Shown here piece after piece: positions 59,277 to 64,000 of a stretch of DNA of 64,000 nt. Under the pieces are notes generated by a model. That model made no database searches. It saw only the letters and a program-made list of their open reading frames with translations, and was not told the origin of the DNA. The translations under genes were made by a program, and so were the position numbers. The stretch is from Ruficoccus amylovorans. Lineage in GTDB: Bacteria; Verrucomicrobiota; Verrucomicrobiia; Opitutales; Cerasicoccaceae. The stretch's first letter is position 1; every line of letters begins with the position of its first letter. The stretch is from NCBI RefSeq assembly GCF_014230085.1, contig NZ_JACHVB010000021.1, forward strand, positions 72,501-136,500, in the 5' to 3' direction.

Positions 59277-59352
59277 TGGTAGGCCGGCTGGGACTCGAAC
59301 CCAGAACCAATGGCTTAAAAGGCCACTGCTCTACCGATTGAGCTACCGACCC
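59277..59352 (-). tRNA. tRNA-Lys (UUU)
   Basis: Read on the minus strand it folds as a cloverleaf: acceptor GGGTCGG/CCGGCCT, D arm GCTC...GAGC, anticodon stem GTGGC/GCCAT with loop CTTTTAA, giving anticodon UUU, T arm CTGGG-TTCGAGT-CCCAG. The 3' CCA is encoded (59277-59279). The mobile element described below begins right next to its 5' side. Confidence 0.97.
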
Positions 59353-59432
59353 ATCTGATTGAAAATCAGTATGTTATGACTCTTTGCAAACTTTAACTTG
59401 TCACCCATACCTGTAACCGCATCCTCAAAACC

Positions 59433-60500
59433 GTGTCAAGTTCTCCAGAGTACGTAAAGGTAGCTGAGTGCCTTTATCGCCATTCGCAAAGCGGGGTTTA
59501 CTACGCTCTCGTCAAGAGGGCTGGCAAGCAAATTCGTCGATCTTTACGGACAAAGGACCGCAAGCTGGCCGAGCGCAAGCTGGTCGATTTCCGCCGCAAG
59601 GTAGATAGAATGTACAAGCAGGCCGGGGACAAGGCTGTCACCTTCAAGGAATTTTCTTTGACGTGGCTGAACATTTCCCAGGCCGGTCACAAGAGCCGCA
59701 CAAACACGCGCCGGGAGGCTTCGGTCAAACAACTCACCTATTACTTTGGCATCAAGCGGGTGCGGGATATCACGATCCGCGATTGCGAGGCTTGGCATGT
59801 GGGGCGTAGTCCTGACGTTTCAGCTTCGACCTTCAATAAGGAACGGGATGCCCTCATCGGCATTCTTGATATGGCCGTGCGCGATGGGCTGATTCTCGAC
59901 AACCCGGCCCGGCAGATCGACCGGCGCAAGATTGCGAAGCCGCAGATCATTATCCCGACTCGGGAGCAATATCGCCTGCTGTTGCAAACCATGCGCGAGG
60001 ATAACCCTCGGGCAGTGCGGACGGCGAAGGGGGCCTTTCTGGTGGAATGCCTTGCCTGTTCGGGGATGCGGGTAGGGGAGGCTACGGCCATGCGCTGGGG
60101 AGATATCGACTTTCAGCGCGAACTATTCACCGTCACTGGTGGGCAGGCAGGTACCAAAAACGGGGATGTGCGGGTTGTGCCGTTGTTCCCGGGCTTCAAG
60201 GATTTCCTCAAGCGGCTCAAGAAGGCGGTCGGGGGACGGCCTGCCGCTTCGGATTTACTTATTGGCATAGACAGTGCCAAGCAAGCCCTGCAATCGGCCT
60301 GCGCCAAAGCTGAGTTGCCACACTTCACGCATCATTCCATGCGCCATTATTTCGTCAGCAACGCCATCGAAGCCGGAATCGATTTTAAGACCATTGCGGC
60401 TTGGGTCGGTCACAAAGACGGTGGCTTGCTGGTCGCTAAAACCTACGGCCATCTGCGCGATACCCATTCCGCCGAAATGGCCAAACTGATGAAAGCTTAA
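59433..60500 (+). CDS. Tyrosine recombinase/integrase
   Basis: 355 aa from GTG 59433. An Arm/SAM-like N-terminal domain (residues about 20-160) is followed by the catalytic domain: first Arg in ACSGMRVGEA, H-x-x-R in HHSMRHYF, the GHK segment and the nucleophile Tyr in AKTYGHLRD. It should integrate and excise the element by strand exchange through a phosphotyrosine. It starts 80 bp from tRNA-Lys, which is the likely target. Confidence 0.93.
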   Translation: MSSSPEYVKVAECLYRHSQSGVYYALVKRAGKQIRRSLRTKDRKLAERKLVDFRRKVDRMYKQAGDKAVTFKEFSLTWLNISQAGHKSRTNTRREASVKQLTYYFGIKRVRDITIRDCEAWHVGRSPDVSASTFNKERDALIGILDMAVRDGLILDNPARQIDRRKIAKPQIIIPTREQYRLLLQTMREDNPRAVRTAKGAFLVECLACSGMRVGEATAMRWGDIDFQRELFTVTGGQAGTKNGDVRVVPLFPGFKDFLKRLKKAVGGRPAASDLLIGIDSAKQALQSACAKAELPHFTHHSMRHYFVSNAIEAGIDFKTIAAWVGHKDGGLLVAKTYGHLRDTHSAEMAKLMKA

Positions 60501-60521: not shown

Positions 60522-60815
60522 ATGAGCGTTACAGCCATCAAAGAAGTACATAGTCATGGAAACAGCGACGTTTCCATTTTCTCCAAGACTCAGTTCACCG
60601 TCGAGTTTACCCAAGAGGAAGCCGATGGGATACGCAGGATCGCAAAGCTGACAAGCATTCCAGAGGAAACGATCATCCGCTTTTCGCTTCGGGATTCTTT
60701 GGGGTTCAATCAGTATGAAGGGTTCAGTCAGGAGGACGTTTTTAACGCCATGGCCAATTGCATGGAGGACGGCAGGATTACACATGAAAGAAGCCGCCTT
60801 GAAGCTACATACTGA
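60522..60815 (+). CDS. Small element-borne protein A (possible ribbon-helix-helix)
   Basis: 97 aa. It shares its layout with the next gene: an N-terminal H-S-H-G-N/S motif, a strand KTQFTVEFTQEEA, helix GIRRIAKLTS, a turn, helix ETIIRFSLRDSLGF and a conserved C-terminal acidic segment (EDVFNAMANCMEDG). Strand-helix-helix order fits MetJ/Arc-type DNA-binding proteins, but I do not recognise a named family. It lies 21 bp after the integrase gene. Confidence 0.55.
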   Translation: MSVTAIKEVHSHGNSDVSIFSKTQFTVEFTQEEADGIRRIAKLTSIPEETIIRFSLRDSLGFNQYEGFSQEDVFNAMANCMEDGRITHERSRLEATY

Positions 60816-60868: not shown

Positions 60869-61156
60869 ATGAGCGATACAACTGTTGTAGAGATGCAAAG
60901 TCATGGAAGCCAGAGCGCATCCATTCCCGCCAAGACTCAATTTGCCATCGAATTCACCCAAGAAGAGGCCAAGGGCATCAGAAATATTGCCGAGGCTCTT
61001 GATGTATGCGAAGAGGACATCGTGAAGTTCTCACTCCGGCACTGCCTTGGCTTCAATTGTTACAAGAACTTTAGCCGTGAAGATATCTTTGTGGGGCTTG
61101 TCAGTCATATTGAGGATGGGGAGTTTGATCGAGAATGGTACACTATTAATTTCTAA
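60869..61156 (+). CDS. Small element-borne protein B, paralog of A
   Basis: 95 aa. About 40% identical to the preceding protein through FTQEEAKGIRNIAEAL and VKFSLRHCLGFN, so this is a tandem duplication that has diverged. AAGGA about 8 nt before ATG. It may form heterodimers with protein A or control element genes; this is only inferred from the possible ribbon-helix-helix fold. Confidence 0.55.
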   Translation: MSDTTVVEMQSHGSQSASIPAKTQFAIEFTQEEAKGIRNIAEALDVCEEDIVKFSLRHCLGFNCYKNFSREDIFVGLVSHIEDGEFDREWYTINF

Positions 61157-61178: not shown

Positions 61179-61206
61179 GCGGGTCGGGTTATGATTCCCG
61201 GCCCGC
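61179..61206 (+). terminator. Hairpin, possible terminator after the paralog pair
   Basis: A 10-bp stem GCGGGTCGGG/CCCGGCCCGC (one T-G pair) with an 8-nt loop, followed by only TTCAATT. It places the ATG at 61191 inside a loop and favours ATG 61221 as the start of the next gene. Confidence 0.55.
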
Positions 61207-61220
61207 TTCAATTGGGTGCT

Positions 61221-62315
61221 ATGAAAAAACCAGCTATGCTACCAGAGTCCGAATGGACTTTTGATTCTGCGGTTGCTGAATGGGGCCTGTGCCTTGTGTT
61301 TTGCTACGAATACGCAAGGACTGCCTGCACGCTGTACCCTGAGTTTGCGAAACTTATCGAAGAAGTCTGCTATGTCGGCAATGTGCCGAGCCCAATTCCT
61401 TGGGAAGGGTACAAGGATTACGGGATAGAGACACCCGAAGAGGGAGAAGACTTGGATGCTCGGATGATGAAAAGGCGTGACGAGCTTGCAGGCCACCATT
61501 TAGGCCCATTTCTATTGGCTGTGCTTCGGTATCTCAAGAACCCCAAGTTGGGTGAGAATAAGCCAATCTCGATAGCAAATCCATTTGTAGATTGGTTCGT
61601 ACGATATGCTCGGAATTGGAGTAATCGTTCACCAAATCCACTCTATTTCATGCATCCCGGCAGAGGGAATGCTCATGTGTGGACAAGCTACATGGGTGAG
61701 GCATGCGACGTCGAAAATGATACAGCATGGATGGCTCCGTCAACTTACCGCCCGACTGATCGGCCACTCAAGCCTCTGGTACATGGTTTTACAACCGCAT
61801 CGTTGATGGAGGTCAATTGGGCCTACCCAGACAAAATACTGATGAAGTACTTTGAGCAGTTTTTGCGAGAGAATCGGCCACCTCGCTATAGATATGGAAG
61901 AGGCCCAGCCGCACTCTACACCAGCAAGCAAATCGGTGTTTACGGTCAGCCATTTCCTTTTGACCAAAATCAAGGACTCGAATGGCTTTCAGTCTTTAGA
62001 CGCCGCAATGCAATACTTGATTATGCATGGGATGAGTATTTCGCACTGTATGATCCGATCAAGGGAAACGAAAATGAACTCAGCTACCTAAAAAGGAAAG
62101 AAGCGTCCCAAGAACGCTTGGCCGTTCAGATGAATAAAGCGGAGGTGATCCTCAAATGGTTTGCCCATGGCGGTTACATTGCTAAACGCAAAAGCAATTC
62201 AGAGCCACTGTGGAAGCACATCAAAAGCCTCGAAGAGTTGGAACCAGACGGAGAGTGGTCCAGTGGACTGGGATGGATACAAAAACCGGAGTTCGACTTT
62301 GATGATGACGAGTAG
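61221..62315 (+). CDS. Unknown element-borne protein
   Basis: 364 aa, soluble, with no signal peptide or membrane helix. Aromatic- and charge-rich; visible blocks are WTFDSAVAEWGLCLVFCYEYARTA, given in part, LYFMHPGRGNAHVW, GFTTASLMEVNWAYPDKIL and an acidic C-terminus (FDFDDDE). GC is clearly lower than host genes. No domain is recognised. It is single-copy cargo of the element, placed between the paralog pair and the replication genes. It could be a defence or accessory function, but nothing in the sequence shows which. Confidence 0.6.
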   Translation: MKKPAMLPESEWTFDSAVAEWGLCLVFCYEYARTACTLYPEFAKLIEEVCYVGNVPSPIPWEGYKDYGIETPEEGEDLDARMMKRRDELAGHHLGPFLLAVLRYLKNPKLGENKPISIANPFVDWFVRYARNWSNRSPNPLYFMHPGRGNAHVWTSYMGEACDVENDTAWMAPSTYRPTDRPLKPLVHGFTTASLMEVNWAYPDKILMKYFEQFLRENRPPRYRYGRGPAALYTSKQIGVYGQPFPFDQNQGLEWLSVFRRRNAILDYAWDEYFALYDPIKGNENELSYLKRKEASQERLAVQMNKAEVILKWFAHGGYIAKRKSNSEPLWKHIKSLEELEPDGEWSSGLGWIQKPEFDFDDDE

Positions 62316-62367: not shown

Positions 62368-62393
62368 ATGCAGGCGTGAGAGCGTGCCTGCAT
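62368..62393 (+). promoter_or_regulatory. Inverted repeat overlapping the HTH-gene start codon
   Basis: ATGCAGGC (62368-62375) and GCCTGCAT (62386-62393) are perfect complements separated by 10 nt; the right arm includes the first two bases of the start codon. As RNA it would mask the start, and as DNA it could be an operator for the small HTH protein. Confidence 0.5.
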
Positions 62394-62619
62394 GTCCACC
62401 GCAACACCCGACAATAACACCTCCGTACCTTTGCAGGGCAGGCTTGCTCTGACGAGGGATGAAACTGCCCAGGCATTGGGGATTTGCCCCAAGTCTGTTG
62501 ACCGGCTCCGGCAGCGTGGTTTGCTTCGCGCATCCTACGCCTTGGGGCGACCCCGGTTCGCTGTTCGCGAGATTCAGCGCTTTCTGGATGAAACATCGCA
62601 ACCCGTGGAGGTTGCGTGA
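62392..62619 (+). CDS. Small helix-turn-helix protein (excisionase/MerR-like HTH_17)
   Basis: 75 aa. The HTH_17 pattern LTRDETAQALGICPKSVDRL, RGLLRASYALGRPRF and IQRFLDE covers residues about 19-68. Such proteins act as recombination directionality factors or repressors in integrated elements. The stop overlaps the GTG start of the Rep gene (GTGA). The start codon is inside an inverted repeat, so it may control itself. Confidence 0.8.
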   Translation: MSTATPDNNTSVPLQGRLALTRDETAQALGICPKSVDRLRQRGLLRASYALGRPRFAVREIQRFLDETSQPVEVA

Positions 62620-64000
62620 TAACCGGCCCTCCAGATAAAAGAGAAGCCCGAGAGGCGGCCACCTCTCAGGCTTCAGGAAAATCCAGTTTTTGCGGATCGG
62701 ATTCTTGTGACAGAAAGACATTTGCGTCCCCGTCTGTCAAGGCGGAATGCCTGTCGGCTGTTTGCGACAACAGCAATTCGCTTGCTGATTGCAGCGCAAA
62801 TGAGCGTTCCGCAACGAGCGCCGCAAATGATCGTTGTGCCCATGCAACCCGCATAAATACGGGAAGCAAATCATTTGCGACTGGCCAGGCAAACCCCGGT
62901 TCAACCGATGATTGCAAGTCCGGTTTGTGTGTTGTTGCTGCCGGCGAGTCACAACCGCAAACCGCAAACGCGTGGGATTTGCTGGAGCGGTTGGGTTTTG
63001 AGGGTACTGAAACCGAAGATTTCCGGGCTCCCGAGTCTGAATATCTGGATATTTGCCGTTCCTACAGCGGAGAGAGCATTCCGGTTGAGTCCTATGAGAA
63101 GCTGGTTGCCGATCAGGCGGAATTGATCCGCATGTCAGATGAAATCGCAACACGCTTGGCCGATGGGTATTATGATGCCGAACTTGAGCAGTCGGTATCT
63201 CGCAATCCGTGGCCGGAATCAGCACAACCATTGTGGCGTTATTCGGCTCTGACGAAGTGCAAACAACGGCTTCCCACCTACCGGAACATCCGGTTCCTGC
63301 CTTGGCAGGCGAAGATGCGCCGGGGCACGCACTTGAAGTTCCTCGAATGGTGGTGCAACCGCCATCCGTTTGCGAGGATGTTTGTGCCCACAACGGGCGC
63401 ACGTTGTTGTGTCGATGAATTGCGGGAGCGCATTCAGGATTTGCAGCGCAAAACCTCGAAGCTGAACGCAAAGCCGTGGTTCAAAAAGCACTATGAGATT
63501 GTGTGGCGGTCCACGGAGATCGGGACGCCTGAGCAGGATGAGGCGGGGGAGTGGACCTTTCACCCACACGCGCACATCATCGTCAACCAGAAGCATTTTA
63601 TCCCGCCCGAGCAATGGCAGGTCTTGCGTGCTCGGATCAAGGCGCACTTTGGCGGCAATTACTTTCGGGAATCAGGCAAGCTCGCCAAGCCGCGCGAGGC
63701 TTGTAAGTACGTGGTCAAGCCGCAGGCCGTGCTTGAGCTGGACAACAAGACGTTGATCGAGTTGTACGATGCCCTGTTCAAGTTGCGGCTATGCCAGCCG
63801 CTCGGCTCCCTGAAAGAGTCGATCAATCACTTTAAGGAACACCGCTTGAAGCTGGTTCGCCCGTGTAAGTCGAACGGTTGGAAGTGGCGCACAGTCAAAG
63901 ACTGGAACCGCCATTGCGAAAAGGACAAGGATGACGCCGAGCTTTCCGACGAAGAACTTGTTGAGGGCAATATCGCGATCAGCGAGCCGGGAAACGGCGG
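62616..64000 (+). CDS. Rolling-circle-type HUH replication initiator (Rep), 3' end outside window
   Basis: The frame is open from GTG 62616 (GGAGG 4 nt upstream) to the window edge, giving 461 residues so far. The N-terminal 110 residues are low complexity (Ser/Ala/Asn/Cys-rich), and the region carries iteron-like DNA. The conserved part has motif II HPHAHIIV (His318 and His320, HUH) and motif III KYVVK (Tyr365, Lys368; Y-x-x-K), as in Rep_1 of pUB110-type plasmids. It would nick one strand at the origin through Tyr365. The start could be later, but the GTGA coupling supports 62616. Confidence 0.82.
   Translation, partial: MITGPPDKREAREAATSQASGKSSFCGSDSCDRKTFASPSVKAECLSAVCDNSNSLADCSANERSATSAANDRCAHATRINTGSKSFATGQANPGSTDDCKSGLCVVAAGESQPQTANAWDLLERLGFEGTETEDFRAPESEYLDICRSYSGESIPVESYEKLVADQAELIRMSDEIATRLADGYYDAELEQSVSRNPWPESAQPLWRYSALTKCKQRLPTYRNIRFLPWQAKMRRGTHLKFLEWWCNRHPFARMFVPTTGARCCVDELRERIQDLQRKTSKLNAKPWFKKHYEIVWRSTEIGTPEQDEAGEWTFHPHAHIIVNQKHFIPPEQWQVLRARIKAHFGGNYFRESGKLAKPREACKYVVKPQAVLELDNKTLIELYDALFKLRLCQPLGSLKESINHFKEHRLKLVRPCKSNGWKWRTVKDWNRHCEKDKDDAELSDEELVEGNIAISEPGNG
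62719..62879. repeat. Iteron-like CGCAAATG repeats in the Rep 5' region
   Basis: The 8-mer CGCAAATG occurs at 62795-62802 and 62822-62829 (direct, extended to CGCAAATGA-N-CGTT at 27 bp spacing) and inverted at 62719-62726 and 62872-62879. A TGACAGA/TCTGTCA inverted repeat (62708-62739) and a GAAGCC...GGCTTC hairpin (62644-62674) lie beside them. This is a candidate replication origin or Rep binding array. Confidence 0.5.

Follow-up and report, generated by a model that had tools for sequence, protein, structure and literature searches.

The analysed window, a stretch of 64,000 nt from Ruficoccus amylovorans (G000:C21:72501-136500), contains close to its end the first part of an integrated element, and its position in the contig allows a frame to be traced beyond the window edge. 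Positions past that edge are given here as window equivalents, together with coordinates of the locus L002 (window coordinate minus 56000). The element measures 10,484 bp between two exact 42-bp copies of the 3' part of a tRNA-Lys gene and has a G+C content of 53%, compared with 63% in the surrounding DNA. Its target is a tRNA-Lys(TTT) gene on the minus strand (59277..59352). Repeat comparison places attL at 59312..59353 (L002:3312-3353) and attR outside the window at 69796-69837 (L002:13796-13837), and an uninterrupted tRNA-Lys locus, i.e., the empty site, is found in two congeners (G001 and G002). These attachment repeats and empty sites bear out the earlier proposal, made from the letters of the window, that the replication frame described below is part of an element.

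From the integrase through the KAP gene, all genes are co-directional on the plus strand, separated by no more than 77 nt. The tyrosine integrase (355 aa, 59433..60500) has relatives of 42-59% identity in tRNA-integrated elements of other species. It is followed by a 97-aa protein of unknown function (60522..60815, from the ORF list and profile search), its likewise unknown 95-aa paralogue (60869..61156), a 374-aa cargo protein that gave no convincing family match in the profile search (61191..62315), an excisionase/AlpA-like HTH_17 protein (62392..62619), the Rep protein, two proteins of 77 and 156 aa, and a KAP NTPase resembling PDC-S20. A 179-aa protein matching HEC-09 is encoded on the opposite strand thereafter. 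A MITE-like insert of ~155 bp (L002:10486-10645, window equivalent 66486-66645), present in ~20 copies in the genome, disrupts the KAP gene, and this copy of the element may therefore be decaying. No relaxase family was found among the element proteins scanned, and it is possible that Rep itself serves as relaxase. Neither capsid nor secretion families were recognised among the element proteins, KAP was the sole NTPase recognised, with no packaging ATPase, and a genome search for a PM2-type major capsid protein gave no P2_N match. A 4.56-kb sibling element in G003 carries the same integrase (in two frames), the 95-aa gene, and a Fic gene, without HTH or Rep. Just past attR, a fragment resembling an integrase start (L002:13936-14199, window equivalent 69936-70199) is probably what remains of an earlier insertion. 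The same genome has two more integrases of this family, one at a tRNA-Arg gene with its integrase interrupted by a stop (L069, G000:C63) and one of 3.9 kb at a tRNA-Leu gene without HTH or Rep (L071, G000:C35).

The rep frame begins at GTG 62616 on the plus strand, is stop-free up to 64000, and closes at the window equivalent of 64589 (L002:8589), which yields a protein of 657 aa. The sequence-only reading had described it as an unlisted GTG-started frame without a stop to the window edge; the contig sequence keeps this frame intact. The full protein matches Pfam Rep_1 (PF01446) with an E-value of 2.6e-10 and 40.6 bits (curated cut-off 33.2), so that the family proposed from two motifs stands; HPHAH lies at residues 316-320 and KYVVK at 364-368, with the tyrosine named earlier at residue 365. 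Seven of 12 members of the Rep family match Rep_1 at E<=0.01. An undisputed Rep_1 protein (L054, E=1e-64) served as alignment reference, and both the HUH and the YxxxK motif are present in Rep in this alignment. All aligned sequences, the reference included, share Glu301, His316, His318, Glu361, Lys364, Tyr365, and Lys368; Glu301, Glu361, and Tyr365 are also invariant across the Rep family. The catalytic residues of pC194 RepA are Tyr214, Glu210, and Glu142 (PMC5703833). Glu361 precedes Tyr365 by four residues, the same spacing as that of Glu210 in pC194, and the set Glu301/Glu361/Tyr365 would correspond to Glu142/Glu210/Tyr214, where Glu301 is matched to Glu142 by its place in the alignment and the comparison runs via L054, not the pC194 sequence itself. 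The predicted Rep model (pLDDT 73) resembles microvirus replication initiators in BFVD (E about 2e-4); a PDB fold search with the model gave no significant match, and a PDB sequence search gave no relative. Judged by its sequence, the frame is confirmed as a real gene for a predicted Rep_1-type rolling-circle replication protein.

Searches with the integrase and HTH genes as queries revealed a wider element family. Of 373 genomes in the order, 17 encode close integrases, the genome of the window among them, and 8 of the 11 integrase loci read combine a tRNA and an integrase with an HTH or initiator gene; in most of the loci read, the end of the tRNA recurs 4-12 kb away as a 34-41-bp repeat. 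The general plan is a tRNA-targeted element of 4-12 kb with integrase, HTH_17, rolling-circle initiator, and cargo, often defence genes. As cargo, sister elements carry SIR2 proteins, a DNA methyltransferase, type IIG-like enzymes, and, in L075, Cas9, which directly follows the HTH-Rep module and is itself followed by cas1- and cas2-like genes (L075:2907-8612). The HTH proteins of sister elements are 42-49% identical to that of the window and usually precede an initiator of the REP_ORF2-G2P family (above cut-off in L067, L068, L070, L072, L075, L076, L081, and L082; Pfam RepSA matches weakly in L070 and L082). An HTH-only search gave further loci, three of them with a 4-nt overlap (L078, L079, L084). 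As judged from these sequences, HTH and Rep act as a module open to exchange, in which the HTH stays and the initiator family changes.

The HTH stop codon overlaps the following start by 4 nt in 8 of the 16 HTH loci, opening frames of 269-657 codons. Five of these eight frames exceed a Pfam cut-off as initiators (window, L067, L070, L075, L076), and the other three match weakly (L084 to REP_ORF2-G2P, L078 and L079 to Rep_trans). The coupling of HTH and rep that had been read from the window therefore gains weight from the recurrence of the overlap with other initiators, whereas the role of the HTH as an excisionase does not: HTH_17 genes also precede rep with a 4-nt overlap in a TAV2 provirus without a recognised integrase (L029) and accompany a related Rep on a free 5.5-kb Roseivivax plasmid. 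In L026, L027, and L040, the HTH gene overlaps the integrase gene instead of rep. A single int-HTH-rep transcript is plausible because of the co-directional, closely spaced genes, although in the sister L019 a hairpin resembling a terminator stands between HTH and rep.

Thirteen members of the Rep family, window included, were found in Verrucomicrobiota. Six of them are capsid-less, and the rest are Vinavirales (PM2-like) proviruses: L017, L020, L021, and L029 have PM2-type capsid genes that exceed the Pfam cut-off, and L018/L028, L030, and L031 have homologues of capsid and/or packaging ATPase. The Rep tree requires at least two changes between capsid-less and provirus states and does not put the window Rep within the virus clade. 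Integrase (58%) and HTH (45-48%) mark the element in L019 as sister to that of the window, but the L019 Rep belongs to the other major branch, which indicates that the initiator was exchanged, a kind of replacement also reported for Vinavirales (PMC9502842). Searches of viral_contigs and phage records with Rep gave no relative. ORFs adjoining rep in L016, L026, and L027 were considered as partner genes and rejected, as they appear to read through att/tRNA sequence. It was also observed that four PM2-like proviruses carry a dif-like site (ACGCACAAN6TTATGTNTAAT) immediately ahead of their replication genes (L017:11630, L018:11691, L029:9084, L030:2664), in three of which (L017, L018, L029, from three genera and with no recognised integrase) it is next to malQ. 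This suggests XerCD-dependent integration of these proviruses; a search for the second junction of the site found none.

Where Rep starts and what its first codons encode are connected questions. Codons 1-120 have a weak coding signal without periodicity, and no homologue of them was found; as the ~135 C-terminal codons score poorly as well, the actual termini of the protein may differ from those of the frame. Codons 1-120 were initially viewed as noncoding and the GTG overlap as chance, and in its explicit form this reading has rep initiate at an internal TTG (62979 or 62991) behind a chance-open intergenic origin. The sister L019, where HTH and rep are 628 nt apart and the spacer contains a terminator-like hairpin, would fit such an arrangement. 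However, a GGAGG (62607..62611, plus strand) lies 4 nt upstream of GTG 62616, whereas only 0.8% of NTG codons across the element have a GGAGG in range, the GTG overlaps the end of the HTH gene (62392-62619, stop codon TGA) by 4 nt exactly as in seven sister loci, and a comparable stretch remains open in only 3.3% of dinucleotide shuffles. Because of the ribosome-binding site and the recurring overlap, we returned to GTG 62616 as the probable start, which is now better supported than in the sequence-only reading that first pointed out the overlap, if not certain, and an internal start appears unlikely. A 177-codon Cys-rich frame is open in the AT-rich DNA between HTH and rep of L019 (L019:13586-14119).

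Just inside the rep frame, the hairpin scan identified a 32-nt hairpin (62643..62674), a candidate part of the double-strand origin, followed within the weakly coding N-terminus by eight TTTGCG/CGCAAA motifs on both strands (62689..62968; shuffle mean 0.8). Together they form a candidate origin at the rep 5' end, and a rep gene carrying its own origin would explain the odd N-terminus. A second TTTGCG array (L002:12538-12838, window equivalent 68538-68838) is partly conserved in the rep-less G003 sibling, with changes at all codon positions. TTTGCG arrays were rejected as a family-wide origin repeat since sister elements show no enrichment and the array is peculiar to this element. In the 130 nt that follow the HTH stop, the best hairpin ranks among the strongest 5% of its own locus in 10 of 16 loci, with p-values that are nominal because the test was devised after the pattern had been seen and some loci are related; L067, L072, L074, L075, L076, and L080 have no unusual hairpin there. 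The hairpin could instead control translation or transcription of rep, an explanation that we take seriously and to which we give somewhat less than even odds. It is consistent with the location directly after the start codon and with the terminator-like form in L019 and, on the minus strand, in the window. Against it, hairpin and flanks track the type of initiator, as expected of a Rep target: CTTCCTTGTC adjoins the hairpin in L070, L082, and L084 (a 10-mer common to three loci arose in 0 of 300 shuffles), and in L068/L073 the hairpin core is kept while the outer stem differs in sequence yet pairs, likewise in L078/L079.

The nature of the element as a whole has also to be weighed. PICMI phage satellites carry defence genes, and their search model consists of integrase and AlpA (PF05930/PF12728) (PMC10803314). 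The window element could be a similar satellite that relies on a helper phage for packaging, its HTH protein serving as activator beside the integrase, the replication gene, and anti-phage cargo: the logic is the same, its Rep is shared with Vinavirales proviruses, and capsid, relaxase, and secretion genes were not recognised in it. Nevertheless, it has no primase or fis site, no packaging signal was recognised, the shared Rep may reflect ordinary exchange of modules, and the genome has no P2-type capsid gene and therefore no resident helper of that type, the ground on which a satellite of a resident PM2-like provirus was rejected; we consider a PICMI-like satellite decidedly unlikely. Verrucomicrobia prophages are known within Vinavirales, where rep is replaced together with short upstream genes, including by divergent Rep_1 (PMC9502842). 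A capsid-less remnant of such a provirus, its structural genes lost, would account for the proviruses in which Rep relatives occur alongside genes for a PM2-type capsid and/or a packaging ATPase. This already disfavoured origin is very improbable, as the architecture of integrase, HTH, and tRNA fits capsid-less sisters with unrelated initiators and the tree does not nest the window Rep in the virus clade.

We therefore prefer, with a probability of roughly 0.7, to regard the frame as the replication initiator of a mobile, non-conjugative element that sits in tRNA-Lys, with a proposed excision-replication cycle. The element ends, empty sites, Rep family with its predicted catalytic residues, conserved HTH, changing initiators, and recurrent overlap and hairpin can be read from the DNA, and we infer from them excision, replication, the identity of the origin, and co-regulation. 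In the proposed cycle, the integrase would excise the element as a circle with the help of a small DNA-binding protein, perhaps the HTH. The HTH-rep unit, linked by the 4-nt overlap and translated in concert, would provide the Rep_1-type nickase, which would nick the origin via Tyr365 so that rolling-circle copies follow. As in pC194, termination would proceed by hydrolysis, here promoted by Glu361, and the circle would integrate again at tRNA-Lys. More tentatively, and with considerable doubt, the family may represent widespread verrucomicrobial defence-carrying satellites or integrative plasmids based on an interchangeable HTH-Rep cassette, with a fixed HTH and swapped initiators from several families, each with its own origin hairpin inside the coding start.

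The frequent replacement of replication genes is already known from small phages; here it would occur in non-viral integrated elements in which the regulator stays constant. An initiator family common to integrated elements and tailless phages implies that one exchangeable replicon unit ties together integrative elements, plasmids, and Vinavirales, and the element family would be a vehicle that moves anti-phage systems, a Cas9 locus included, between Verrucomicrobiota. Furthermore, a concrete candidate origin is now available for testing.

Integrative elements of actinomycetes such as pSAM2 combine a tRNA target, an integrase, an excisionase, and a rolling-circle initiator. The window element shares with them the tRNA target, the integrase, and the initiator type, but has no FtsK-like DNA translocase and differs in phylum and gene order. 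Its Rep resembles Rep_1 proteins of the pC194/pUB110 kind in the HUH motif, the single predicted catalytic tyrosine, the glutamate four residues earlier, and the upstream glutamate, whereas it is only ~21% identical to the aligned Rep_1 protein (L054), has long extra termini, and has its gene downstream of an HTH gene within an integrated element. Like PICMI satellites (PMC10803314), the element is small and integrated and carries an integrase, an HTH_17/AlpA-type protein, a replication gene, and defence cargo; in contrast to them, it has an HUH initiator instead of a primase and tRNA-Lys instead of fis. Finally, it differs from the Vinavirales clade A prophages with divergent Rep_1 (PMC9502842) in having its own integrase at a tRNA and no capsid or packaging gene, yet its Rep belongs to the same broad initiator family as theirs.
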